Assembly (NCBI GenBank): GCA_947495685.1
Contig: CANLZY010000019.1
Span: 1 to 64,000, forward strand
Length of the DNA stretch: 64,000 nucleotides
Direction of reading: 5' to 3'
DNA from: an uncultured Tropicimonas sp.
GTDB lineage: Bacteria; Pseudomonadota; Alphaproteobacteria; Rhodobacterales; Rhodobacteraceae
Every line of letters starts with the position of its first letter. The stretch's first letter is position 1. Positions 24,772 through 53,980 of the stretch are shown piece after piece. A program made the translations under genes and the position numbers. The notes beneath the pieces were generated by a model. It was not told the DNA's origin. It did no database searches and was given only the letters and a program-made list of their open reading frames with translations.

Positions 24772-25110
24772 ATCCGATTGCCTCAGCCGGGTCGCTGAAG
24801 GATCTGGGGCGGCGCGCAGGGGTGTTGAGCAAAGGGAATACGCATTCTCAACCGTTAACGTTTTTGGCCGTAGAGGTTAACCCGGCTTTTCCGACAGTGC
24901 ACATCTTCCGTTGCTTGCCGCGATCCTTGACGAAACAGCCACTTGGCCCACCTGCCCGTGGAGGATCACGCGAAGCAACGAAATGCCCCTACCCGCCCCC
25001 ACCAGAGCAAGGCCCCACCCGGAACGCTTGGCTCCGAAAGGTGCCGTCGAAATGAAAACCGCCGCCCGGAAGAATCGGGCGACGGTGTCGTCTCTTGATA
25101 TGGTGCAGCG
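24772..25110. other. intergenic region between two minus-strand operons
   Basis: No gene is seen. The right end carries the terminator of the redox operon (25055-25081). The left half should hold the promoter of the methyltransferase operon. Two GTTAAC palindromes (24854-24859 and 24876-24881) lie 22 bp apart, two helical turns, about 90 bp upstream of the methyltransferase start; they could be regulator sites. Confidence 0.45.
25055..25081 (-). terminator. intrinsic terminator of the PFOR-Nfn operon
   Basis: On the minus strand CGCCCG and CGGGCG pair across a 7-nt loop, followed by GCGG and then a TTTT run. It begins about 30 bp after the stop codon of the Nfn-like gene. The stem is short but GC-rich and in the right place and orientation. 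Confidence 0.65.
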
Positions 25111-27870
25111 TTACAGAAGCCCGTGACGCTCCAGGCTCCGCACTTCCTGCGCCTTGAACTGGGCGAACCGTGGCATGAACTTGTCCCATTCCACGGTATG
25201 AGCGTCAAATTCCGGACCGTCGATGCAGGCGTGGCGACGGACCTGTTTGCCACCCTCGATGACCGGCACCATGCAGGCGCCGCACATGCCCGTCGCATCC
25301 ACCATGATGGAGTTCAGGCTGACCACCGTTGGCACCCCGTACGGCTGCGTCAGGTCGCTGACCGCCCGCATCATCATCGGCGGCCCAACCGAGATGACCT
25401 CGGCGATCTTGCGACCCTTGCTGACGTTGCCGGCCTTGAGCATCTCTTCGAGCGGCGTGGTGACAAAGCCCTTGATCCCGAACGTGCCGTCGTTCGACGC
25501 ATAGATCACGTCCAGCTTGTCGCCGTATTTGGCTTTCAGCAGGCCCATGCGTTCGTCGTCTCCGGTCCAGAACAAGTGCTCGGCGGACCGGAACCCGATG
25601 ATCATCGTCACATGGTTCCCGGCTCGCAGATGGGCCTTGGCGATCGGGTAGATGGCCGGCAGACCGACGCCGCCGGCGGTGAACACCACCGTCTGCTCGT
25701 CCGGATACTGATGCACATCGCTCGGGCGACCGAGCGGTCCGGCGATGCCGGCAAAGGCATCCCCGACGGCCATCTGGTTCATCATCTTGGTCGATGTGCC
25801 CATGCCCTGGATCACCAGGTCGATGGTCCCGGCCTCGACATCCCAATCGGCCAGCGTCAGCGGGATAAGCTCGCCATCCTGATCAGCCAGAACCCGAACG
25901 AACTGTCCGGCCCGAGCTGCCTTGGCCACCACCGGCGCCTTGACCGTCATCTCGACAATGCCGTTGGCAAGGGTCGTGTGCGCGACGATTGCCTGCCGCG
26001 CCTGCCCCATGTCGGTATAAACGGCCGCCTTCTCGACCATTTCCTTGATCTCGTCGGCCTTGAAGGGAATGTCGCCGACGATCTGACGCGCAGCGGCCTG
26101 TCCGTCGCCTGCGGCAAGGATTGCCGTGGAACCGCCCCGGGCCGCATCACCACCCGTGTACACGTCCTTGATCGAGGTCTCCTGCCCGTCCTCGACCTCG
26201 ATCGTGCCCCATTTACTGAGCTTGAGGTCAGGTTCGGCGGACGGGATGATCGGGTTGGACTTGTTGCCAAGTGCCATGATCACGAGGTCGGCCGGCATGC
26301 GGATCGACTCGCCGGTCGGCATCGGTCGGCGGCGACCGGAGGCATCGGGCTCGCCCAACTCGTTGACGTCGACCATCGCGTGGGTGACGAAATGGGTGTG
26401 GCTGTCGCCGATGAACTCGGTCGGGCCCCGCAGTTCGGCAACCTCGATCCCCTCTTCGAGCGCGTGGTGCAGCTCTTCGACCCGGGCGGGCATCTCGGCC
26501 TTGGTCCGGCGATAGACGATGGTCACGTTGCCGCCAAGCCGCTTGGCCGTACGCGCGGCGTCCATCGCCGTGTTGCCACCGCCGATGATCAGCACATGCT
26601 TGCCTTCGACATCCGGAAGAGGCGTTTCAACCTCGGGGTTCCGTCCGCGCATCAGGTTGACACGGGTCAGGAACTCGTTGGCCGACATCACGCCGTTCAG
26701 ATGTTCCCCCGGCACGTTCATGAAGGTCGGAAGACCTGCGCCAGAGCCGATGAAGATCTTCCAGAACCCCGCCGCCTTGAGGTCATCCAGCGTGGCCGAC
26801 TTGCCGACAACGAAGTTCCGGACGAACTTGCCGCCCAGCAGGTCGATCTTGGTGACGACATCGTCGATCAGCGAGTTCGGCAGCCGGAATTCCGGGATAC
26901 CGTACCGCAACACGCCGCCAAGTTCGTGGAAGGCTTCGAACACGGTCACCGGGAACCCCTCGACCGCCAGAAGATAGGCGTTGATCAGGCCCGAGGGACC
27001 GGATCCGACAATCGCGACCGGCGGTTTTTCGGCCCGATCCCAGGGGCTGACAACGCCCTTGAAACGGGCGAACCGATCCCCTTCCTCAAGCTTTTCATGC
27101 TCGGGCAGGTACCACTCCAGCTGACCGATCTCAATCGGGCGCTTGGTATGTTTGCACACCCCCTGGCACTGGTGCTCCTGCGGGCAGACGCGGCCGGTGA
27201 CGTTGGGCAGCGGGTTGGCGGATTCAATCAGTTCCAGCGCTTCGCGGATCTTGCCCTTGCCGACGAGGTCCAGCATCTCCGGGATGTGGATCTTGACCGG
27301 GCACCCGCCGACGGTCGTCGCCTCCTTCTCGCGGATCCGCTCTTTCAGCACGCCCAACTCGCAAGGACGGTCCTCGCATTGCTTGTCGCGCAGCACTTCC
27401 AGCCAGACGAACAGATCGACCTCGCGCAGGCTGTAGCCGAGCGCGCGGTATCCAAGATAGCCGGTATTCACCAGTTCGAAGTCATGGTTCCGCTCTTCGG
27501 GGGGGCGGACATAGGGCGGAATGTAGTTTTCCGCGGGCCACCCCTCGGACAGACCCTTGAACATCGGATAGCGCCCCGAAAGATGGGTATCGAGCGCCCG
27601 GATGAACTTGCGTTTGAACTTGAGCGGCAGGTCCCAGATGAACCGCTGGATCACCGTGCTCATGTCGTCTTCGCGCAGAAGCAGGTTCCACAGGACGCCG
27701 GTGAACCGTTCACCGATCTCCGGCTGGCGGAATTCCCAGGCCAGGGCCTGGGTTCCGTCGGCGACGAACACGTTTCGCAGCGACCGCGGATCGGCGGCCA
27801 GGTGCTTCTTCAGGACTTCGATCTGAGCCTGGAACAGCTCGTCCTGAGTGTCGGGTACCTCGACGTTCAT
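25111..27870 (-). CDS. single-chain NfnB-NfnA-like FAD/NAD(P):ferredoxin oxidoreductase
   Basis: 919 aa in three parts. Residues 1 to about 190 have no motif I recognise. About 190-630 is a GltD/NfnB-like module with Fe-S cysteines (GGCPVKIHIP, then VCPQEHQCQGVC), the FAD motif GSGPSGLINAYLL, the NAD(P) motif IIGGGNTAMDAARTAKRLGG and VYTGGDAARGG. About 630-919 is an NfnA/PyrK-like ferredoxin-NADP reductase module ending in the [2Fe-2S] site MCGACMVP...RRHACIDGPEFDAH. Nfn normally has separate subunits and couples NADH, ferredoxin and NADPH by electron bifurcation; here both are one chain. It overlaps the PFOR-like gene by 4 bp, so it most likely takes or gives that enzyme's electrons. Cytoplasmic. 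Confidence 0.85.
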   Translation of the reverse strand: MNVEVPDTQDELFQAQIEVLKKHLAADPRSLRNVFVADGTQALAWEFRQPEIGERFTGVLWNLLLREDDMSTVIQRFIWDLPLKFKRKFIRALDTHLSGRYPMFKGLSEGWPAENYIPPYVRPPEERNHDFELVNTGYLGYRALGYSLREVDLFVWLEVLRDKQCEDRPCELGVLKERIREKEATTVGGCPVKIHIPEMLDLVGKGKIREALELIESANPLPNVTGRVCPQEHQCQGVCKHTKRPIEIGQLEWYLPEHEKLEEGDRFARFKGVVSPWDRAEKPPVAIVGSGPSGLINAYLLAVEGFPVTVFEAFHELGGVLRYGIPEFRLPNSLIDDVVTKIDLLGGKFVRNFVVGKSATLDDLKAAGFWKIFIGSGAGLPTFMNVPGEHLNGVMSANEFLTRVNLMRGRNPEVETPLPDVEGKHVLIIGGGNTAMDAARTAKRLGGNVTIVYRRTKAEMPARVEELHHALEEGIEVAELRGPTEFIGDSHTHFVTHAMVDVNELGEPDASGRRRPMPTGESIRMPADLVIMALGNKSNPIIPSAEPDLKLSKWGTIEVEDGQETSIKDVYTGGDAARGGSTAILAAGDGQAAARQIVGDIPFKADEIKEMVEKAAVYTDMGQARQAIVAHTTLANGIVEMTVKAPVVAKAARAGQFVRVLADQDGELIPLTLADWDVEAGTIDLVIQGMGTSTKMMNQMAVGDAFAGIAGPLGRPSDVHQYPDEQTVVFTAGGVGLPAIYPIAKAHLRAGNHVTMIIGFRSAEHLFWTGDDERMGLLKAKYGDKLDVIYASNDGTFGIKGFVTTPLEEMLKAGNVSKGRKIAEVISVGPPMMMRAVSDLTQPYGVPTVVSLNSIMVDATGMCGACMVPVIEGGKQVRRHACIDGPEFDAHTVEWDKFMPRFAQFKAQEVRSLERHGLL

Positions 27871-30800
27871 TTGATGATCTCCGAGTCGCAGTTTGCGGCC
27901 ACCTTCGCGAGCCGCGCCTTGAGTTGCGGCGTCATCTTCACCTTTTCCAACGCGCCGGGGATCGTGTGCGCTACCGATTTCACCTGCCCGTCCACGACGA
28001 TCTTCGTCAGTTCGAACAGTTCCGGGATCTCCTGGTAGCAGGTCTTGCAGTCGCTGCAGAGCGGCACATCCTCTTCGTGGATATGGGGGATGTCCGATCC
28101 GCCGTCCGACGACGGTGCTGCGGCGTCCGTGGCCGCCGAAGCAGCTGCGGCGACGGGCGACAGTGCCCCGCCAAGACCGATTGCGGCAGGGGCACCGGAT
28201 GCGGCGGCAAGCTCGCTCATCCCCGAGGCAATGCTGTCCATCGACGCTTCGCGTTCGGCGATCGCCTCGTCGTAGCGTTGCTGCAGGGCGGCCAGTTCGG
28301 CGTGGTGCGCCGTATCGAGCCGTTCAACATCCATCCCGGCCAGGTGTTGGAGCGTGCGCCAGTTCCGGCGCCGTTCCTCGACCAGGTGAACCACCGTCGT
28401 GCCGACCTCAAGCCGCACAAGCCGGCGCTCCCCGTCGGTCGCATAGACAAACGCGGCCTTTCCGAAACGCTCGGCGGGTGGCAGGTCGATGTATTCGTGG
28501 ACCGGCACACCGTCGGCGCCCTCGGCGAGCGGGCGGAACTGCTTCTTGAAGCGCGTCTCCTCGAAGGCAAAGTCCGCCGGTGTCAGCGGTACATCCATCA
28601 ACTTGACCGCACCGTCCTCGACATATTCGATCGTCGTCGTCGACCAGTCTTTTTCTACCGCCGGGTTGCCGTCGAGCAAGAACCGGTCTTCCAGCGTCGC
28701 ACCCGCCTTTGGATCGTGCACGAACACCGGGCTGACGCGCGCCTCGACCGCCAGTTTGGAGCGGTTGTGCGCCGCGGCATCGGCGATGCCGTGTTCCGCC
28801 TGACAGGGTGTGTAGACGTCCATGACCGCCGGCGAGGAATTGTGCTCCAGATAGGCCATGAGGTTCTTCAGGAAGTGGCCGGGCATCGACGTGGCGCTTT
28901 GCACCACAAAGACATCCGGGTGGAACGCGGCGATCAGGCCCAGCTCCTTTCGGTCTTCCTGTTTGCCGGACAGCGCCGGGCCAAAGCGGCTGAGGTCGCT
29001 GTCCTGCCCCGAGAGGCTGGCGGTGGAGGTCTGGCCACCGGTGTTGGAATAGACGCCGGAGTTCAGCACCATAACCTTGACCGGCGTATTGCTGGCCAGC
29101 AGCCGCGACAGGGCGCCAAAGCCGATGTCATAGGCCGCGCCGTCACCGCTGATGTTGATGACCGTGGGCAGCAGGCTGCGTTCCTTGGACGAGAACTCGT
29201 GCCATTCAAAGTTCCGCAGGAAGGCATCGTCGGTGGCCGAGTCGTAAGCGTCGGCAAGTTCGAGCCGCGCAACCCGCAGCGCCTTGAAGTCGACAGCCGC
29301 CGTGGCCGTCAGCCCTTCGAAGATGCCCTTGGACAGCGCCGGACCGTCCTGGAACAGGCTATTGACCCAGGGATCGTTGTAGGGGTTGTAGGGGAACGTC
29401 GAGGCATAAACCGAGCTGCAGCCGGTGGCATTGGCAACCACCATCGCCGCCGGGCCGTTGCCGGTCGGGCCGCCCTCCATCAGGAACAGGCGTTTTTCCA
29501 GCACCTTCAGTGCGTTCGAAATCCGCGCCGCCCGAACTGCGTCACCAGCAACCTCGGGCAGTTTGGCCTCCAGATCGGTGACCAGGCTTTCCAGTTCCCG
29601 GATATGCCCCTTCAGGCGCCGGTCGTGGATCGCGTGGCTGGCCGAAACGACCTGCCGGATTGCCGTCACCTCGCCACAGCCCCGGCAGGCGCCATGCCCG
29701 CCCGTGGTCGCGTAATAGGTGTCGCGGTCGAGCATCATGCGCTTGATGTCGCCATCCGTCGCAAAGGCATCCTCGATGTAGCGCGCAGGCGTGTTCGGGG
29801 TCTTGGACAGGAAGGCGAATTCGGACTGCAGTTTTTCCAGCAGCGGCGTGTCTTGTTCGACCTCGGTCAGCGCGCCGGGGCCGCAGACATCGATGCATTC
29901 CAGACAGCCAGAGCACTTCCACGGATCGACGACCACGGTGAACAACCCGCCAGACCCGGAGCGATCTGCCTCCATCGAGTCAAAGAACGGGCGCGTCCGC
30001 GAAACCGGCAGGGTCGCCGCAACCTCGCCCACACGGGTCAGGTTGCGTTTCAGAACCGCGCTGTCCACATCGAGCGCCGCGACGGCGTCGGCCACCAGCA
30101 GTCCGAAAGAGCGGGACTCCTTTGTGTCGTTGTAGGCCGCGCGCACCGTTTCACCGATGGACCGGATATGATCGCGCACCAGTTCGCGTTGCGCGGTCGG
30201 CATGTCGACTTCCTTGAGGGCCGTCAGCAGCAGATCGTTGATGTCGAACACCGTTGCCGGAATGGCGGCATCGGGGCAAACCATCGTGCATTCCAGACAG
30301 CCGGTGCACAGGTCCACATCCAGAACCGGCACCTGGCGACGGAACAGACCCTTGTCGCGGGCGGCCGCAGTGCCTGCGGGCATGAACATGCCGCTGCCGG
30401 GCAGAACCGGCGCTTCGCCGATGGTCCCGTCGCGGAAGGGCGCGCCCACGGTTTCCTCGTAATAGTCGTGGTCGAACAGGCCTGCCGGAGAGGCATCCTG
30501 GGCGATCCGACACATCGAGGTCGAAATCGACGACGCGAAGGGCTCGGCCGACTTGGCCTGCGCCGCAACCTCGACGAATTCCGGCTGGGTATAGTCGATC
30601 GCCGCAGTGGCCTTCAGGCCGTCTGCGATCACCGCCATGTTGCCATCGACAATCGCCGCGCCCTTGGAGCGGAATTTCTTGGCGATCTGGCTGCGGACCT
30701 TTTCCAGCACCGCCGTCGCGTCGGACCCTTCGGTGATGCGCTCGACATGACCGCAGACCGCGCCGATGAAGGCGATGCCCATCATCCGGGTTTCCAGTTC

Positions 30801-32858
30801 AGGCGACGGCGCATGCTTCTTGGCAATCGCAAAACCGTCCAGCACGAACAGATGGATGTTCTTGCGAACAATGAACTCGCGCATCGACGCAGGAAGCTCT
30901 TGCCAGACCTCCAGCGGCGACAGGCTCGACTGCAGGATGAAGGTGCCGCCGTCAATCAGCCCGCGCAGCGGGTTGCTGTGCTCGAAGACCTTGTGGTCGG
31001 GCGAGACAACAACCTCGACATCCTCGAGGTCAGCGTTGGTGATCTTTACCGGCTCGGGGCTGAGGGTGATGTAGTAGTTGGTCGGGGCGCCGCTTTTTTC
31101 GGAGCCGTATTTCGGGGCCGCCTTTGAGTGCAGGCCAAGTGCATTGGCCAGGATATCCGTCAGCAGCTTGCCGGTGGCGATGGTGCCGTAGCCCCCCACC
31201 GAATGGAACCGGATACGCAGCGCGCCGTCCGGCAGCATCCGCGGGTTGGGCTTGGTCTCAAGCGCCATCAACTCGGTTTCGGGATAGGCTGCCCGCAGCC
31301 GGTCCTGAAGCTCCGCCATGTGCGGCGTCGGGTTCTTGGAGAAGAACTGGCTGCCCAGGTAGACAAACGGCGCGTTGCGTTCGTCCATGTTGTCATAGGC
31401 GGCGATCAGGTGACGCGGTTGCAGGTCATGTGCGCCCAGCCCGAAGATGGCCGTGGTCAGTTTCGGCAACCGGCTGAGGGCCGGAATGCCCGGATAGCGG
31501 TCGCCTTCGGCATTCTCGACCGCCTTCACCAGCGCCTGGTTCACCAGCCCGGTAAGGGCGGTCACGTCGGAGCGTTCCAGCACGGTCACGGCCCGCTTGC
31601 CCTTCAGGGCAGCGACCAGATCGGCCTCGGGGAAGGGTTGCAGCAACTTGACCGACACCACGCCAACCTTACGGCCAAGGCGGCGCAGATGGGCGGCCAC
31701 GGCTTCGGCGTCGTCGGTCACCGAGCCCAGACCGACCAACACGGTTTCGGCGTCGTCGCATTCGAATGTCTTGACCGGCGAGTACTCACGCCCGGTCAGG
31801 GCCGAATACTCGTCCATCGCCTCGCGGACAAACCGCGGCACGTCGCGGACGAAGTGGGTGCGGTGGTCGACGCTGCCGGCCTGGAAATCGGGCTGGTTCT
31901 GCACACCGCCGGTCAGGCCGGGGTTGTGAACATCGACCTGCGCCGGAACGCGCTGGCGGGTGCCCTTTTGATAGGCGTTGACCCATTGGCGGCGCCATTG
32001 GGAATGCAGTTCCTCGGGCAGTCGGGACAGTGTCTCGTCGACACGGGCGCCAGCATTGTCGGCCTCCACCGCGTCGGCATTGGCGTCAAGGAAGTCGATC
32101 AGCGAAACATAGTCGTCCTGCGCCAGGTCGGAACTGTGCCGGCCAAGATAGCGCTTCAGTTGAAACACCCGGCCCTTGGCGCCAAACAGCATTTCCTGTG
32201 CGACGGTCGGGCACGGAATCCGCGATCCGGGATCGCCAACGAACAGGCGCAGCAGGTCGTCTTCCGGCATCATGACTTCGCTCATCATGTGGCTGGTGAC
32301 AAAGCCGTCCATGGAGTTGGCGACCGGGATCATCGACATCGCGCTGACCTTGTAGGAGATCGCGGCGAGGTCGGCAGCTTCCTGCGGGTTGGAACCGAAC
32401 AGGATCGTGTAGCCGGACGGCAGCAGCGCATAGACATCGTCATGCCCGGCCATCACGTTGAGCGAGTGGCGCGAGACGGAGCGCGCGGCAACCTGCATGA
32501 CAAAGCCGCCAACCTTCTTGCCGACGGTCACATAGTGCGACTCGATCCCGTAGAGGATGCCCTGGCTCGACGAGGCATTGGAGACGTACTGGTCGCCGGT
32601 CAGGGCCGCGCCAAGCGCGCCGGACTGGGCCGAATGCTCGCCCTCGGGTTCGAAGAAGAACGGATGCCGTCCCCAGATGTTGACACCGCCGCTGGCGCGG
32701 AAGGCCTCGTAGAGTTCGGCGATCTCGGTAGATGGCGTGATCGGGTATCCGATCACCCCGCCGCAGACCTGCCCCATCACCTGCGCGATGGCGCCATTAC
32801 CGTGAATAACAGTGGATACTCCCGGAAACTCAGGAGCCTTCTGAAGCGTATCTTTCAT
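27867..32858 (-). CDS. giant pyruvate:ferredoxin oxidoreductase-like 2-oxoacid oxidoreductase with C-terminal ferredoxin domain
   Basis: 1663 aa; NifJ-type enzymes are about 1170-1200. The N-terminal domain (VIGYPITPSTEIAELYEAF, then EPEGEHSAQSGALGAA) is followed by the gamma-like domain (RFHSVGGYGTIATGKLL, ~560). Two [4Fe-4S] motifs follow, CTGCLECTMVCP at ~850 and CSGCLECIDVCG at ~980. The TPP domain has GHGACRGCGEV (~1056), ISGDGAAYDIGFG (~1238) and NSGVYSNTGGQTS. The extra C-terminal part has a charged helical stretch, an Ala-rich linker and a ferredoxin-like site CSDCKTCYQEIPELFEL (~1600) with a late Cys. It should cleave a 2-oxoacid and CoA to acyl-CoA and CO2, or run in reverse. The true substrate is unproven. 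Confidence 0.87.
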   Translation of the reverse strand: MKDTLQKAPEFPGVSTVIHGNGAIAQVMGQVCGGVIGYPITPSTEIAELYEAFRASGGVNIWGRHPFFFEPEGEHSAQSGALGAALTGDQYVSNASSSQGILYGIESHYVTVGKKVGGFVMQVAARSVSRHSLNVMAGHDDVYALLPSGYTILFGSNPQEAADLAAISYKVSAMSMIPVANSMDGFVTSHMMSEVMMPEDDLLRLFVGDPGSRIPCPTVAQEMLFGAKGRVFQLKRYLGRHSSDLAQDDYVSLIDFLDANADAVEADNAGARVDETLSRLPEELHSQWRRQWVNAYQKGTRQRVPAQVDVHNPGLTGGVQNQPDFQAGSVDHRTHFVRDVPRFVREAMDEYSALTGREYSPVKTFECDDAETVLVGLGSVTDDAEAVAAHLRRLGRKVGVVSVKLLQPFPEADLVAALKGKRAVTVLERSDVTALTGLVNQALVKAVENAEGDRYPGIPALSRLPKLTTAIFGLGAHDLQPRHLIAAYDNMDERNAPFVYLGSQFFSKNPTPHMAELQDRLRAAYPETELMALETKPNPRMLPDGALRIRFHSVGGYGTIATGKLLTDILANALGLHSKAAPKYGSEKSGAPTNYYITLSPEPVKITNADLEDVEVVVSPDHKVFEHSNPLRGLIDGGTFILQSSLSPLEVWQELPASMREFIVRKNIHLFVLDGFAIAKKHAPSPELETRMMGIAFIGAVCGHVERITEGSDATAVLEKVRSQIAKKFRSKGAAIVDGNMAVIADGLKATAAIDYTQPEFVEVAAQAKSAEPFASSISTSMCRIAQDASPAGLFDHDYYEETVGAPFRDGTIGEAPVLPGSGMFMPAGTAAARDKGLFRRQVPVLDVDLCTGCLECTMVCPDAAIPATVFDINDLLLTALKEVDMPTAQRELVRDHIRSIGETVRAAYNDTKESRSFGLLVADAVAALDVDSAVLKRNLTRVGEVAATLPVSRTRPFFDSMEADRSGSGGLFTVVVDPWKCSGCLECIDVCGPGALTEVEQDTPLLEKLQSEFAFLSKTPNTPARYIEDAFATDGDIKRMMLDRDTYYATTGGHGACRGCGEVTAIRQVVSASHAIHDRRLKGHIRELESLVTDLEAKLPEVAGDAVRAARISNALKVLEKRLFLMEGGPTGNGPAAMVVANATGCSSVYASTFPYNPYNDPWVNSLFQDGPALSKGIFEGLTATAAVDFKALRVARLELADAYDSATDDAFLRNFEWHEFSSKERSLLPTVINISGDGAAYDIGFGALSRLLASNTPVKVMVLNSGVYSNTGGQTSTASLSGQDSDLSRFGPALSGKQEDRKELGLIAAFHPDVFVVQSATSMPGHFLKNLMAYLEHNSSPAVMDVYTPCQAEHGIADAAAHNRSKLAVEARVSPVFVHDPKAGATLEDRFLLDGNPAVEKDWSTTTIEYVEDGAVKLMDVPLTPADFAFEETRFKKQFRPLAEGADGVPVHEYIDLPPAERFGKAAFVYATDGERRLVRLEVGTTVVHLVEERRRNWRTLQHLAGMDVERLDTAHHAELAALQQRYDEAIAEREASMDSIASGMSELAAASGAPAAIGLGGALSPVAAAASAATDAAAPSSDGGSDIPHIHEEDVPLCSDCKTCYQEIPELFELTKIVVDGQVKSVAHTIPGALEKVKMTPQLKARLAKVAANCDSEIIK

Positions 32859-33161
32859 CTTTTTCTACCCGATTTCATTTGCGCGCCTCTTAACGGTTTT
32901 TGGTCAGACGAAACATGCAACCTTTGCGCGCACTCTCCCCTGGGGCCTTTGTAGCAAGGGGTTTGCGGCCACCAAACTAATCGTCGCAGGTCCGCGATAC
33001 CGACCGTCCGACTCACCGACCAACGCCAGATCACCCCCCGCTGCCGCCGACATGGGCAGGCCGAAATCCCGGCCGTGTTTTCCCTGTTCCAGGTGTTGTT
33101 CTGCGCTACGTCCCGTCGTGGCGGCATGCCGTCACCCAGACAACAGGAGATCGCGGCGACC

Positions 33162-34529
33162 ATGGCACACAGGCAAGGATCCAGGGCGCGACGCATTCCC
33201 ACCGGTCGCGTGTCGCGCCTGTTGCAGCTTGGTTCGCTTGCAACCGGGATTGCCGGAAACATGACCGCGCAAGGACTTGGCCAGATATCTCGCGGCACCC
33301 GCCCTGCCCTGCGCGACCTGCTGCTGACACCTCGAAATGCGCGACGCCTCGCCGATGATCTGTCCCGGATGCGGGGCGCGGCGATGAAGGTCGGGCAACT
33401 TCTGTCGATGGAGGCTGGCGATTTCCTGCCCCCCGATCTGGCCGAGATTCTTGCCCGTCTTCAGGCCGCCGCCGACCCGATGCCACCACGGCAACTGAAT
33501 GCGGTTCTGACGGACAACTGGGGGGCGGACTGGCGATATCATTTCGACAGTTTCGATGTTCGCCCCGTTGCGACGGCATCCATCGGTCAGGTGCACCGGG
33601 CCCGCCTGCGCGATGGCCGGTCGCTGGCGGTAAAGGTGCAATATCCCGGTGTGGCGCAAAGCGTTGACAGCGATGTCGCCAACCTCGGCGCTCTGGTCAA
33701 GCTGTCGGGGCTGCTGCCGGAGGGATTTGACCTGGCCCCCTATCTTGCCGAAGCGCGGCAGCAACTTCGGCTGGAGACGGATTATCACCACGAAGCCCGG
33801 GCAATGGCCGAGTATGGAACGCTGGTGTCCGGGATGGACCCATTCGAGGTGCCTGTTCCGATTGCCGACTGGTCCACCGGGCAGGTGTTGGCGATGTCAT
33901 TTCTGGATTCCCGCCCCATCGCCTGGCTGGAGCAGGCTCCGCAAGCCGAGCGAGACCGCGTCGCCCATCACCTGATCGACCTGACCTTGCGGGAAATCTT
34001 CGGTTTCGGTGTCGTGCAGACCGACCCGAACTTTGCCAACTTTCGCTACAACGCCACTACCGGGCGGATCGTCCTGCTGGATTTTGGCGCCACACGAACC
34101 ATCGACCCGGCGATCGTCGCGACATGCCGCGACCTGCTTTCTGCCGGGTTGCGCGCGGATGACTTGGCCGTGCGGGATGCGGCAACCGCACTTGGCCTGC
34201 TGTCGGCAGACATGCCCGACTGGCAGAGCCAGAAAATCCTGTCGATACTGGACCTCGCCTGGGCCGAAATCCGTCGCGATGTCTTCGATGCCGGGCAAAG
34301 CCCGTTGCTGGCCCGCCTGCGCGTCGAGGCGGCGGAGCTTTCGCAGGCCCGGGTGCCGCCACCGGTGATGCCGATGGACGCCCTGTATCTGCAACGAAAG
34401 GTCGGTGGGATGCTGCTCTTGATCATCCGGCTGCGGGCCAGGGTCGGGCTGCGGGACCTCGTTGAACGTCATACGGCGCACCCGCCTGCCACTCAGACAC
34501 CGGGTGGCGCCATGGGTCAATCTCCGTAG
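33162..34529 (+). CDS. ABC1/UbiB-family atypical kinase-like protein
   Basis: 455 aa. Hallmarks of the UbiB/COQ8/ABC1 family are RGAAMKVGQLLSM (the KxGQ motif, about 75-87), the Ala-rich nucleotide loop VATASIGQVHRARL, the Lys of LAVKVQYPGV, the catalytic-loop QTDPNFANFRY and the metal-binding DFGATR. Such ATPases support ubiquinone biosynthesis or lipid homeostasis at the membrane. The start is the ATG of MAHRQGSR, about 12 bases after AGGAG; an earlier ATG at 33126 lacks a ribosome site. It is divergent from the PFOR-like gene and overlaps the convergent baeR-like gene by 13 bp. Confidence 0.87.
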   Translation: MAHRQGSRARRIPTGRVSRLLQLGSLATGIAGNMTAQGLGQISRGTRPALRDLLLTPRNARRLADDLSRMRGAAMKVGQLLSMEAGDFLPPDLAEILARLQAAADPMPPRQLNAVLTDNWGADWRYHFDSFDVRPVATASIGQVHRARLRDGRSLAVKVQYPGVAQSVDSDVANLGALVKLSGLLPEGFDLAPYLAEARQQLRLETDYHHEARAMAEYGTLVSGMDPFEVPVPIADWSTGQVLAMSFLDSRPIAWLEQAPQAERDRVAHHLIDLTLREIFGFGVVQTDPNFANFRYNATTGRIVLLDFGATRTIDPAIVATCRDLLSAGLRADDLAVRDAATALGLLSADMPDWQSQKILSILDLAWAEIRRDVFDAGQSPLLARLRVEAAELSQARVPPPVMPMDALYLQRKVGGMLLLIIRLRARVGLRDLVERHTAHPPATQTPGGAMGQSP

Positions 34530-35200
34530 GCGTAACCGACCCCATAGACCGACCGGATCGGATCCCAATCGTCAGTGACGGCCTTCACCTTGTGGCGTAT
34601 GTTCTTGATGTGGCTGTCGACCGTGCGGTCGATGACAGCAGCGTCATCCGGAAAGACGAGGTCCAGCAGCTGAGATCGGGAAAAGACCCGTCCGGGGCGG
34701 CGATGCAGGACCTGCAACAGCTGGAATTCTCGCCGGGTCAGATCCAGCGGCCGGGTACCAACCCGTGCCTTCCACGTTTCCGCGTCCAGTACGATGGTGT
34801 GCTGATCGGGCGTATCCCCTGCCGCCTTGGGCTGCGACCGGCGCAGGATCGCACGGACGCGGGCGACCAGTTCACGGGGCGAAAACGGCTTGCACAGGTA
34901 GTCGTCCGCCCCCAACTCCAGCCCCAGCAGGCGGTCGATCTCTTCGACCTTGGCGGTCTCCATGATGATCGGCACCTCGCTTTTCATCCGCACCTCGCGG
35001 CAGATCGTCAGCCCGTCCTTTCCCGGCAGCATCAGGTCCAGAACCACAAGATCCGGATCGCCGGACAAGATCCGTTCGACCGCATCGGTGCCCTCCCTCA
35101 GGGTCTCCACGTCGAACCCGGACTGCTCCAGATATTGCGTCAGGATGTCGGCCAGCGCCGGTTCGTCCTCGATGATCATGATACGTTTATTGGGGGTCAC
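34517..35200 (-). CDS. baeR: OmpR-family response regulator, BaeR-like
   Basis: 227 aa. The receiver domain has the acidic pair E11-D12, phospho-acceptor Asp55 (VVLDLMLPGKDG), Thr82 and Lys104 (DDYLCKPFSPREL). The stretch TAKVEEIDRLLGLELGADDY matches BaeR closely. The C-terminal winged helix has LTRREFQLL, DRTVDSHIKNIRHK and VYGVGYAYGD. In enterobacteria BaeR activates envelope-stress and efflux genes. I use the GTG giving VTPNKRIMIIEDE, overlapping the kinase stop by 14 bp; a longer frame is an extension inside the kinase gene. Its target genes here are unknown; a direct repeat at 37601-37618 is a candidate site. Confidence 0.87.
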   Translation of the reverse strand: MTPNKRIMIIEDEPALADILTQYLEQSGFDVETLREGTDAVERILSGDPDLVVLDLMLPGKDGLTICREVRMKSEVPIIMETAKVEEIDRLLGLELGADDYLCKPFSPRELVARVRAILRRSQPKAAGDTPDQHTIVLDAETWKARVGTRPLDLTRREFQLLQVLHRRPGRVFSRSQLLDLVFPDDAAVIDRTVDSHIKNIRHKVKAVTDDWDPIRSVYGVGYAYGD

Positions 35201-36626
35201 TTGGTCGTCCTTCGGTTGGCAGAACGATGCGAACGCGCAGCCCGCCCAGTGGCGATGTCTCGGCCGAAATCGTGCCACCGTGGGTCGCCACGATGGCCGC
35301 ACAGATGGCGAGGCCAAGGCCCGATCCGCCAAGGTTGCGCGACCGCGAGGCATCGGCCCGGAAAAATCGTTCGAAAAGATGCGGAATGGCCTCTGCTGGC
35401 GGGGTGGGCGGCGAGTCGTCGAAGGTCGCGACGACGGTCTCCCCGTCCTTCCGGGCGCTGACGTGAATTTCGCCCGGCGCGATGGTATAGCGCAAGGCAT
35501 TTTCCAACAGGTTGTCGATCAGTTGCGCCAGCCGATCTGGATCACAGGTGATGTCGAGCGACGTGTCTATGGAGCGGGTCAGCGTCAACCCGGCCTGCGT
35601 CAGTCGCCCGTCGGCCAGATCCAGTCGGTCCTGCAGCAAGTGGCCCAGATCCGCCCGACGTTGCGCAACCGCTTCACGACCTTCGCGGGTGAACGACAGC
35701 AACTTCAGGTCGGCCACCAGCCGGGACAGCCGCATGACGGAATCGTGCATTTCGGTCAGGGTTCTCTCGTCAGCCTTGCGAATGCCATCCTGCATCGCCT
35801 CGATCTCCGCCCGCAGCACCGCCAGCGGCGTCTGCAATTCGTGCGAGGTGTCCGAAATCCACTGACGCTCGGCATCGCGCGATGCCTGAAGGCTCTCCGC
35901 AAGGGCGTTGGTATGGTCGATCAACTGGCCAAGCTCGTCCTTGCGGTCATTGGGAATGCGGGCATCGAAATCTCCATTGGCCAATGCCCGGGCACCGCTT
36001 TCAAGTGCCTTGATCGGGCGCAGTTGATGACGCGCCAACAACGTGGCGGCCGCGGCCGACAACGCCAGCGCAAACAAGGACGCCAGTGCAAGGTTCCGGT
36101 ACTGACCGCGCAGGAAGAACTGATCGCTCTGGCTTCGACCGCTGCGCGGCGCGGTCAGGCCGACATGGCCGACCGGTGGGTCACCGACGGAGGCGCCCGG
36201 CGCCAGGATCGGCCGTTGGGCCGACAGGGATTCACGCAACCCCGGCGGGATCAACTCGGCACCAGCGGGGTCAAGCAGGAACACTCGCATGCTGATCTGG
36301 AACGGGTCGCCCCCGGGGGGGGGCGGTGGGATGTGACCACGGATCGGTTCCGGCCGCTCCGGGCGAAAGTGGTGCTTGAGGAAATCGTTCCAGACCTGGG
36401 AGTTCGAAACCAGTTCCGGCCACCCCGGCGATGCGGGATCGTACGCCTCGGACAGCGCCGCCACGAACGCATCCATTCCCACAAGTTCGCCCTCCAGCAG
36501 GTAGCGCGAGAATCCGTCGCGCATCGAGTAGGCAAACAGCCCACCAAGCGTCGCGATCACAAGGACAGCGACGACAGCAAATGCGCGAAAGAACTGTGCC
36601 GCAAGGGAATGACGAATGGCTGCCAT
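35187..36626 (-). CDS. baeS: sensor histidine kinase, BaeS-like
   Basis: 479 aa. TM1 is at about 12-34 and a periplasmic sensor region spans about 35-177, containing a proline-rich stretch (HIPPPPPGGDP). TM2 is at about 178-198, followed by a HAMP domain (LRPIKALESGARALANGDFDARI). The phospho-acceptor is His262 in SDTSHELQTPLAVLRAEIEAM. The ATPase core has DNLLENALRY, a divergent D-box (TFDDSPPTP), FERFFRADASRSRNLGGSG and GLGLAICAAIV. Overall layout and motifs resemble E. coli BaeS (467 aa). The start is the ATG of MAAIRHS; the longer frame lacks a ribosome site. It is the first gene of the two-component operon and senses envelope stress in relatives. Confidence 0.87.
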   Translation of the reverse strand: MAAIRHSLAAQFFRAFAVVAVLVIATLGGLFAYSMRDGFSRYLLEGELVGMDAFVAALSEAYDPASPGWPELVSNSQVWNDFLKHHFRPERPEPIRGHIPPPPPGGDPFQISMRVFLLDPAGAELIPPGLRESLSAQRPILAPGASVGDPPVGHVGLTAPRSGRSQSDQFFLRGQYRNLALASLFALALSAAAATLLARHQLRPIKALESGARALANGDFDARIPNDRKDELGQLIDHTNALAESLQASRDAERQWISDTSHELQTPLAVLRAEIEAMQDGIRKADERTLTEMHDSVMRLSRLVADLKLLSFTREGREAVAQRRADLGHLLQDRLDLADGRLTQAGLTLTRSIDTSLDITCDPDRLAQLIDNLLENALRYTIAPGEIHVSARKDGETVVATFDDSPPTPPAEAIPHLFERFFRADASRSRNLGGSGLGLAICAAIVATHGGTISAETSPLGGLRVRIVLPTEGRPSDPQ

Positions 36627-36954
36627 GATCGCCACTCTATTCAGGATTGTGCAGCGAATATGAAGGCCCGGGCATGGCCCGTCGCGTACCAGAACGGGTT
36701 TCGGGACTTCCAGAACCAGAACGCAGCATGAAGACACCCATGCAATACATTGATAAAAAACAACTTATCGAAACAGCGCCCCCATCGGCGGGAAATGGCG
36801 GGATTTTCCTGCGGTCTTCCTTTTCGCTCCATGATCGTCCGTCAAGTTCAGGCTCAAAGCAGATGACGTCCCGCGTCACTGGCATGGCCGAGGCCCCGAT
36901 GCGCTGTCTCCAACCCGGACGCGTGCGCCCCGGTCTTCACCGAAAGGACCCAAG
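36627..36954. other. divergent intergenic region baeS / DUF1566 gene
   Basis: 328 bp with no supported gene. It must hold the promoters of the kinase-regulator operon (minus) and of the DUF1566-like gene (plus, ribosome site GAAAGGA just before 36955). I see no strong repeat or intrinsic terminator in it. Confidence 0.4.
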
Positions 36955-52567: not shown

Positions 52568-53980
52568 ATGTCGATGTTTCTCAATTCTGACATTCGTTCA
52601 CGCCTGTTCTCCGGACTTCGGCCAAACGCCGCCCTGTTCGTAACCGCCTCCGCTGTCCTTTTGCACATGGTCTTCGGCTGGGATCTGGCTCTGATGATCG
52701 CCCGGGTCGGGTTCTGCTGGATGTGCCTGGCCGCGATGCCTCGGTTCGAGCTCCGGGAATGGGCCCTTGCGGTACTGTCTCTGGGCCTCGCACTCACGCT
52801 CGTTGTGCAGCCGGGCGGCATGGCGCGGCTGTTCTCGGCGCTTGATCTGGCGGCGTTCTTTGCAACATTCATCGTCTTGTTGACGCTGATCAAGGAAGCC
52901 GCCGAGCGCTCGCCGTCGGTCAAGGCGGTCGGGCATTTCCTGACCTCCCAACCTGCCGGGCGCCGGTTCTTCGCCACTGCGCTCGGCGGGCATACGCTGG
53001 GGGTCTTTCTGAACTTCGGGGCGGTCAGCCTGATCGCGCCACTGATCCAGAAGGGTGCCGAGGACAGCAGTGGACGGGTCGATCCGGATACCGAACGTCG
53101 CCAGCTCTCGGCGCTGTTGCGCGGGTTCTCGTGGTTCCTGCTCTGGGCGCCAACGTCGCTTGCCCAGGCTGTCTTGCTGATCCTGTTTCCGGGGGTCGAC
53201 TACGTGTATCTGGTGTCGATGGGGCTGCTGACCGCCGCCGTGATGATCGTGCTGGGCCGGGCGATGGACCGCTTCGAGTGGCGACATGCACCGCCGCTTC
53301 CGGTTGCGCCCGCCCCGGTTGTGCCAAAGCGGGCGTTCGCGGTCGTCGCCTCGGTCTGCGGATTGCTGATTGCCCTGACATTTTCGCTCAGCCTGACGGC
53401 CGGCTTCACCATCGCGCAATCGCTGATGATCGTCGCGCCAACCATCACCTGCGCCTGGTTCATCGCCGAGGGCGCGCCATTCAACGGATTGGGCGCGATT
53501 TCCCGGCGCACAAAGGCGTTCGGCGCGGTGCTGACGCTGGCCGCGCCGGCCCTGATCCGCACGGGTGTGACGCTCGGGTTGTCAGGATTCATTGGTCGGG
53601 CGGCGGCCTCGGTCCTGCCCACCGACCAGATCGCCCAGTGGCTCGATCTGTCCAGCGTGCCCACATGGCTGTTTCTGGCCGCGTTGCCGGTGATCATCAC
53701 CGCCGGCGGCCAGATCGCGCTCAGCCCGATCCTGATGGTCGTCTTCTTCGGAGAGCTTCTGGGGCAAATGCCTGCGCTGCCGGCCGACCCGACACTGATT
53801 GTCTATTCGTTGGCCTTTGGCTGGGCGCTCAGCATGTCAGCCTCGCCCAACGCGACGGCCACGTTGCTGATCTCGGCGACCTGCCGGATCCCGCCCCAGA
53901 CGCTGACGTGGAAATGGAACGGGGCCTATGCAGTGCTGTGCTACGCTGCCTTCCTCGGGATTATCGGCATCCTCGCATAG
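52568..53980 (+). CDS. polytopic membrane protein, ion-transporter-superfamily-like, function unknown
   Basis: 470 aa with about twelve hydrophobic segments arranged as two similar halves. The first half contains ALGGHTLGVFLNFGAVSLIAP and WFLLWAPTSLAQAVLL. The second contains AALPVIITAGGQIALSPILM and SMSASPNATATLLISA. Paired re-entrant-like hairpins of this kind occur in the ArsB/NhaD/DASS ion-transporter superfamily, so a secondary transporter is likely. It starts 65 bp past the cupin gene's divergent start. It may export or import a pathway metabolite; I do not recognise a named family. Confidence 0.6.
   Translation: MSMFLNSDIRSRLFSGLRPNAALFVTASAVLLHMVFGWDLALMIARVGFCWMCLAAMPRFELREWALAVLSLGLALTLVVQPGGMARLFSALDLAAFFATFIVLLTLIKEAAERSPSVKAVGHFLTSQPAGRRFFATALGGHTLGVFLNFGAVSLIAPLIQKGAEDSSGRVDPDTERRQLSALLRGFSWFLLWAPTSLAQAVLLILFPGVDYVYLVSMGLLTAAVMIVLGRAMDRFEWRHAPPLPVAPAPVVPKRAFAVVASVCGLLIALTFSLSLTAGFTIAQSLMIVAPTITCAWFIAEGAPFNGLGAISRRTKAFGAVLTLAAPALIRTGVTLGLSGFIGRAAASVLPTDQIAQWLDLSSVPTWLFLAALPVIITAGGQIALSPILMVVFFGELLGQMPALPADPTLIVYSLAFGWALSMSASPNATATLLISATCRIPPQTLTWKWNGAYAVLCYAAFLGIIGILA

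Follow-up and report, generated by a model that had tools for sequence, protein, structure and literature searches.

A giant pyruvate:ferredoxin oxidoreductase with a tethered ferredoxin and its one-chain NfnB-NfnA neighbour as a candidate two-protein 2-oxoacid:NAD(P) oxidoreductase in Tropicimonas

We analysed a 64-kb contig piece (the window; 64,000 nucleotides of contig CANLZY010000019.1, assembly GCA_947495685.1) from the 5.6-Mb genome of an uncultured marine Tropicimonas sp. (G000), in which two overlapping genes encode a giant, 1663-residue pyruvate:ferredoxin oxidoreductase (PFOR) that ends in a ferredoxin-like tail and a 919-residue protein that joins NfnB and NfnA in one chain. We favour, with some confidence, the interpretation that the two proteins constitute a self-contained 2-oxoacid:NAD(P) oxidoreductase, with pyruvate as the most likely 2-oxoacid, in which the one-chain Nfn is very probably the partner that receives the electrons of the PFOR to make NADPH. 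Here a PFOR core of known type and an Nfn family that is catalogued and unstudied are joined as a unit with a tethered ferredoxin, and this pairing is the main finding. In many bacteria the two genes are inherited as a pair. The transfer of electrons, their bifurcation, the direction of the reaction and its substrate are all deduced from sequences and models.

The giant PFOR was compared with the best 80 of 395 relatives, taken as named loci from genome contigs and falling into clade A (69 loci) and clade B (11 loci, and 13 after addition of two plasmid loci). Pfam profiles match POR_N, PFOR_II, POR (gamma), Fer4-type and TPP_enzyme_C domains in the order of a PFOR, with POR_N, PFOR_II, POR and TPP_enzyme_C all above the Pfam cut-offs. 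Moreover, all 69 aligned PFORs of both clades keep the twelve cysteines of three [4Fe-4S] clusters, the GDG motif of the thiamine pyrophosphate (TPP) site and the motif YSNTGGQ. A preliminary description of this DNA had listed all parts of a PFOR, and its Pfam domains, both CxxCxxCxxxC sites, the CxxC motif, GDG and the tail cysteines were indeed found. The same description had placed about 460 extra residues before a terminal ferredoxin; the tail ferredoxin is present, and the extra length is not all terminal, as the surplus relative to the 1171-residue Moorella PFOR is spread over about four places when judged from aligned pieces (within residues 206-311, in the stretch separating the two Fer4 motifs, in that from the proximal CxxC to the third cysteine of this cluster, and in the part beyond about residue 1400). 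Among solved structures the best relatives are one-chain PFORs, which are pyruvate enzymes, and Foldseek matched a model of residues 800-1663 to PFOR structures. Against TIGR02176, the pyruvate equivalog, the protein scores 385 bits versus a cut-off of 911 and is not a member; we class it as a divergent PFOR branch outside this equivalog. In the substrate region, R126 is conserved in 69/69 proteins and T41 in 67/69 (the remaining two are gapped), and YPITPS and R126 align with the Moorella PFOR; we take these two elements to bind pyruvate.

The tail carries four cysteines (CxxCxxC...C) that are conserved in 51 of the 56 aligned clade-A proteins and in 13/13 of those of clade B. The clade-A exceptions are L041, which has a broken frame, and L044, L050, L075 and L082, which stop before the tail and in which a tail-like motif is absent from the 3 kb past the PFOR stop. 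A profile built from 21 clade-A tails matches the ferredoxins 7m1o (E 8e-6) and 7m1n (1.4e-5) in the PDB, with seven further matches at E ≥0.15, and Fer4_15 matches 21/21 of these tails at E ≤0.1. A profile of 11 of the 13 clade-B sequences matches ferredoxin I 1dax (E 2e-10) and four more ferredoxins (E ≤0.0052); 1dax is the ferredoxin I of Desulfovibrio africanus and a partner of the PFOR of that organism. From the four cysteines and the likeness to known ferredoxins, the tail is predicted to be a single-cluster [4Fe-4S] ferredoxin. Because the similarity of A and B tails in hhalign is weak (27.7% probability, E 6e-4), their common origin rests on position and cysteine pattern, from which we infer that the ferredoxin tail is ancestral to both clades. 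An AlphaFold2 model (residues 800-1663, 35 sequences, mean predicted local distance difference test (pLDDT) score 78.7) predicts helices at 1487-1506 and 1509-1553, a stretch with pLDDT <50 at 1552-1588 and, at about 1593-1663, a small domain (pLDDT about 72-83), the helix and strand order of which fits a ferredoxin by eye.

The second gene encodes a fusion of a GltD/NfnB part with an NfnA part, as the preliminary description had stated, and its product has motifs for flavin, nucleotide and clusters. Its first 164 residues gave zero Pfam and zero PDB sequence matches, and Foldseek aligned the remainder of the model with Pyrococcus furiosus Nfn (5jca_L, 1.1e-36; 5jca_S, 2.9e-25). As a side point, the N-terminal helical domain could be a docking site for PFOR. 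The canonical NfnB motifs are given as RCx2Cx4Cx3CPV and GRVCPQExQCx3C, followed by Gx2ER (PMC6405883, section 8). In 45/45 aligned fused Nfn proteins the first of these reads RDx2Cx4Cx(13-20)CPV, and G-Q-x-E-W stands where the canonical motif has Gx2ER; GRVCPQExQCx3C is present in the window protein and its cysteines are kept in 45/45. Similarly, the D-x-TGMCGxC [2Fe-2S] site of NfnA is kept in 45/45, and the FAD motif ERxPxT reads E-L-x-P-x-T, with Leu for Arg, in 45/45. By the cluster layout of dihydropyrimidine dehydrogenase, Asp162 with C165, C170 and C239 would lie at the Nfn distal cluster. The distal cluster is the one near which ferredoxin has been docked (PMC6405883, section 8). Fused Nfn types have been described as 'Pattern B' and 'Pattern C' (PMC6405883, section 6), and the window protein corresponds to Pattern C of Liang et al. 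2019 (PMC6405883). Thus, the preliminary description was right about the fusion and overstated its novelty, both patterns and the family NF009415 being already known. The abstract and section 14 of that review describe the fused patterns as still uncharacterised in their properties.

We searched a phylum sample of 398 genomes, drawn twice the same way, for the PFOR (E ≤1e-150) and for NF009415 (E ≤1e-200). The PFOR was found in nine genomes and NF009415 in the identical nine, with adjoining coordinates in 9/9, so that the co-occurrence check suggested in the preliminary description came out in favour of the pairing. Within the genus, both genes are present in 8/9 genomes and G006 has neither, and 0/51 genomes of other genera of the family have a full-length PFOR of the giant type; within the class, a 41% PFOR fragment lies at a contig end of a single genome, G060. 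In a class sample (n = 385), NF009415 (E ≤1e-300) was found only in the window's own genome and, therefore, the pair is rare and patchy. Among the 69 clade-A loci, Nfn lies directly downstream on the same strand in 50, and in 13 the contig ends within the PFOR. The contig of L037 stops 302 bp past the PFOR, and its genome has an NF009415 gene over the cut-off on a different contig; five loci (L044, L050, L075, L082 and L093) have no adjacent Nfn. The patristic distances of PFOR and Nfn correlate with r = 0.86 (44 rows; 0/2000 permutations as high), and Mobiluncus curtisii, with both genes, and M. mulieris, with neither, are sisters on the tree. No new constant neighbour was seen as a third fixed partner in clade A among the 40 largest clusters of open reading frames of at least 110 residues, which were not annotated singly: the big clusters map within the Nfn gene or antisense to it, one cluster of 15 loci varies in position and orientation, and the others comprise few loci. 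The preliminary description had set the pair apart from the systems of anaerobes; this contrast is loose, as the carriers by name include Actinomycetota and purple bacteria with a fermentative or oxygen-free way of life.

The tail and the adjacent Nfn were also lost together. The tail was scored at 55 clade-A loci, leaving out 13 with a cut PFOR and L078 with a broken PFOR frame. Its cysteines are conserved in 50/55 and the tail is lost in 4/55 (L044, L050, L075 and L082), and these tail-less PFORs are without an adjacent Nfn in 4/4 cases; NF009415 over the cut-off is absent from their genomes, in one of which (G445) there is a single 387-bit GltD-like match. On a FastTree phylogeny of the PFOR, calculated with the tail excluded and with L041 (broken frames) and L037 (contig end) dropped before the counts, the tail needs two changes and Nfn three, and both independent pairs agree. 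The joint loss argues that tail and Nfn act together. The preliminary description had held that homologues without the tail cysteines or GDG would speak against it. GDG is kept in 69/69, and tail-less PFORs do exist; because their genomes lack NF009415 over the cut-off, they support a coupling of tail and Nfn all the same.

The most telling comparative fact is the change of the neighbour of the tailed PFOR from Nfn to Rnf in clade B. The 13 loci of this clade (35-38% identical) come from Bacteroidota, Myxococcota, Gemmatimonadota and others, and in 12 of them RnfC and RnfD lie downstream of the PFOR; L105 has a partial RnfC at the contig end. The operon of L097, the sole one of the clade that was scanned further, continues with FMN_bind (RnfG), two Rnf-Nqr proteins (RnfE/A), a NAD-binding reductase domain and an RnfB-like Fe-S protein, and at L094, L099 and L103 RnfB-like proteins, judged by eye from their first residues, stand immediately 5' of the PFOR. 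NF009415 was found at E 1e-100 in 0/11 clade-B genomes searched. Because the giant PFOR of clade B stands before rnf genes, its tethered ferredoxin would there feed the ion pump Rnf. Two further observations concern this clade: the reductase-domain protein of L097 (285 residues, L097:19404-20258) has the Rnf-Nqr genes on one side and the RnfB-like gene on the other and belongs to a cluster found in seven clade-B loci, and the Rnf-linked giant PFORs of L024 and L025 lie, in Gemmatirosa kalamazoonensis and Persicobacter psychrovividus, on replicons that are entered as plasmids and measure about 1.1 Mb.

In the mechanism that we propose, the PFOR would split pyruvate with coenzyme A (CoA), and the electrons would go through its three clusters to the tail ferredoxin, which, on its helical stalk and flexible linker, would swing to NfnB at its altered distal cluster. 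There Nfn would merge these electrons with those of NADH to give NADPH. The net reaction would be pyruvate + CoA + NADH + 2 NADP+ → acetyl-CoA + CO2 + NAD+ + 2 NADPH and may run in reverse; in other lineages the tethered ferredoxin would use Rnf in place of Nfn. With a little more doubt than belief, we extend this to a class of modular pyruvate enzymes that never release ferredoxin, the tethered ferredoxin of which plugs into either the Asp-variant one-chain Nfn or Rnf.

As to its metabolic setting, we read the pair as a second way of turning pyruvate into acetyl-CoA, probably used at low oxygen, which would keep the electrons as NADPH and is reversible in principle. Perfect FNR-type boxes lie within 300 bp upstream of 11/66 clade-A PFORs, compared with 1/1320 mononucleotide shuffles; with at most one mismatch the counts are 19/66 and 17/1320. 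These boxes point to anaerobic use in those lineages. In the whole window, FNR-type boxes with at most one mismatch number 11 versus 4.3 expected (the highest of 100 shuffles had 9), and the sole perfect one is at 52880-52893. A role in nitrogenase supply was considered and rejected: nifH is over the cut-off in 3/9 genus genomes (G002, G006 and G007) and not in that of the window, the pair is found in only two of these three, and 6/8 carriers are without nifH. We also rejected a link to photosynthesis, as reaction-centre genes occur in 1/9 genus genomes, G006, which has no pair. G006 additionally has nifH and rnfC over the cut-off.

Several results weigh against the interpretation of the pair as one coupled machine. 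Eight of the nine phylum carriers belong to one genus and, therefore, the co-occurrence amounts to two genera; similarly, part of the correlation of distances is shared descent. The paired test of tail and Nfn loss gave p = 0.5, because the tail was lost only twice on the tree; a Fisher test, which ignores relatedness, gave p = 1.6e-5. L093, from a Sulfuritalea metagenome-assembled genome, is a counterexample with all four tail cysteines and no Nfn detected (NF009415, E 1e-100). In G471, the metagenome-assembled genome of L048, NF009415 likewise went unmatched at E 1e-100; here the contig ends within the PFOR, short of the tail, so that the locus gives no score for it. In the Nfn protein, the altered first NfnB cluster motif could impair or change bifurcation, and the model has pLDDT <50 at 165-189 and 228-241, exactly around the variant cluster; the structure models are of single chains, PFOR and Nfn apart. 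Concerning regulation, the 11 perfect FNR-type boxes are all from Proteobacteria, five of them Rhodopseudomonas and two tail-less Pleomorphomonas, and the region upstream of the window PFOR has no perfect box, its best having three mismatches. The window's own genome also carries a pyruvate dehydrogenase E1 over the cut-off and further 2-oxoacid oxidoreductase loci at C18:105914-108457 and C12:147526-153845. A search of open-access papers found no laboratory test of the PFOR-Nfn pair. As a separate observation, a GltD-like match lies at C12:147526-148800, near the second of the extra loci.

The closest alternative is that the two proteins merely share a pathway, with the PFOR reducing free ferredoxin, Nfn drawing on it and the tail serving as an accessory exchange site. 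In other systems Nfn draws on ferredoxin that PFOR has reduced (PMC6405883), and the tailed PFOR of L093 is compatible with such an arrangement; the adjacency of the genes, the joint loss of tail and Nfn and the replacement of Nfn by rnf genes beside the tailed PFORs of clade B speak against it, and we regard it as rather unlikely. Alternatively, the tail may be structural or oxygen-protective and redox-inactive. The PFOR of Desulfovibrio africanus has a C-terminal extension with a protective role, and the window's own tail, taken singly, scores under the Pfam cut-offs; yet the four cysteines are conserved in two deep clades, the tail profiles match solved ferredoxins and Fer4_15 was found in every A tail of the profile, making a redox-inactive tail highly improbable.

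Two further alternatives keep the machine and change its use. The pair may run mainly in reverse, with NADPH driving acetate assimilation by way of pyruvate made from acetyl-CoA and CO2, or supplying low-potential electrons elsewhere. That several carriers are named as purple bacteria would favour this direction; others belong to the Actinomycetota, some of which are fermenters, and this weighs against it. So does the window's own genome, in which nifH, the photosynthetic reaction centre and rnfC are all without a match over the cut-off, by its lack of the first two. On the other side, PFOR-based pyruvate synthesis is reported in R. palustris strains, where the enzyme is not stated to be a giant PFOR in the part of PMC8307300 consulted, and the Nfn reaction is termed reversible (PMC6405883, section 14). 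Altogether, we consider mainly reversed operation improbable. That the substrate is a 2-oxoacid other than pyruvate would agree with the score far under the TIGR02176 cut-off; because the best solved relatives are pyruvate enzymes and YPITPS and R126 are retained, we think this distinctly improbable.

The features of the locus are listed in Table 1. The 4-bp overlap described previously is seen in the open reading frame coordinates, and the terminator that the two genes had been said to share corresponds to a terminator-like hairpin just past the second gene; the scan returned seven terminator-like sites versus a mean of 6.4 in shuffles, and the 11-pair hairpin at 25086-25058 has the longest stem. 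The closest named relatives at this locus are from Tropicimonas (Roseobacteraceae): L026, Tropicimonas marinistellae (83%), L101 (82%) and L068 (80%). The Pfam-matched flanking genes (an ABC1-type protein, a two-component system, a methyltransferase and an FMN-dependent dehydrogenase) appear unrelated. Adjoining the operon is a divergent ABC1-type kinase-like gene (33075-34529), followed by a response regulator and a histidine kinase (34517-36737).

Table 1. Features of the PFOR-Nfn locus, in window positions
Feature	Positions	Strand	Basis
Giant PFOR gene, 1663 residues	27867..32858	-	Open reading frame and domain/profile matches
POR_N, TPP-binding half, residues 35-202	32253..32756	-	Pfam
POR (gamma) domain, residues 555-748	30615..31196	-	Pfam
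First CxxCxxCxxxC cluster site, C851/854/857/861	30276..30308	-	Invariant in 69/69 aligned proteins
Second CxxCxxCxxxC cluster site, C982/985/988/992	29883..29915	-	Invariant in 69/69 aligned proteins
Proximal-cluster CxxC, C1058/C1061 (with C1147, C1352)	29676..29687	-	Invariant in 69/69 aligned proteins
TPP_enzyme_C match, residues 1232-1283, GDG at 1238-1240	29010..29165	-	Pfam, alignment
Long helical stalk and disordered linker (predicted), residues 1487-1588	28095..28400	-	AlphaFold2 model
C-terminal single-cluster ferredoxin domain (predicted), C1601/1604/1607/1657	27870..28082	-	Alignment, profiles, model
4-bp overlap of PFOR and Nfn genes	27867..27870	-	Open reading frame coordinates
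One-chain NfnB-NfnA gene, 919 residues, NF009415	25111..27870	-	1707.6 bits versus cut-off 1519
N-terminal mainly helical domain, about residues 1-164	27379..27870	-	Model; without Pfam/PDB sequence match
Variant distal-cluster motif R-D-K-x-C-x4-C, residues 161-170, Asp162 for Cys	27361..27390	-	45/45 aligned
NfnB/GltD-like part, residues 182-600	26071..27327	-	Pfam, PDB, Foldseek
NfnA-like part, about residues 625-915, [2Fe-2S] site D858/C863/C866/C882	25126..25998	-	Pfam, NF009415, Foldseek, alignment
Terminator-like hairpin, 11 pairs, directly 3' of Nfn gene	25058..25086	-	Hairpin scan

Among known systems, the one-chain PFORs (1b0p, 6cin) share with the giant PFOR the domain order, three cluster sites and TPP site, whereas the giant PFOR is about 430 to 490 residues longer and has a tethered ferredoxin. 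Oxidation of a 2-oxoacid is tied to NAD(P) in one complex in the phenylglyoxylate:NAD and 2-oxoglutarate:NADP oxidoreductases of Azoarcus and the pyruvate:NADP oxidoreductase of Euglena, the subunits and flavoproteins of which differ from the PFOR-Nfn pair; the models for PadG and PadI gave 111 and 54 bits, far below the cut-off of 700. Rnf is linked to the system by the sister clade of giant PFORs that adjoins rnf genes, whereas the window locus has Nfn instead, in a genome where rnfC over the cut-off is absent. By its membership of NF009415 (PRK12779) the window Nfn belongs with Pattern C, of which the M. curtisii member stands at the base of the Nfn tree (Poudel et al., as given in PMC6405883). 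The legend of Figure 2 of that review lists PFOR among the nfn neighbours with the species unnamed, whereas pairing with a tailed PFOR and the Asp motif are unmentioned in its sections 6, 8 (part 1) and 14. In the titles and abstract openings of the open-access literature, we found no description of the tailed PFOR, the PFOR-Nfn pair or the Rnf swap.

If the modular class exists, the Nfn plug would let pyruvate drive NADPH formation by confurcation, or NADPH drive the synthesis of pyruvate, the Rnf plug would make a pyruvate-driven ion pump, and facultative and oxygen-exposed bacteria could run PFOR chemistry with insulated low-potential electrons. For the Pattern C Nfn the pairing supplies a defined partner, and with it a probable substrate and a mechanism that can be tested. 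The loci in which tail and Nfn are missing together, and those in which Nfn is swapped for Rnf, provide a natural experiment on the routing of low-potential electrons without free ferredoxin.

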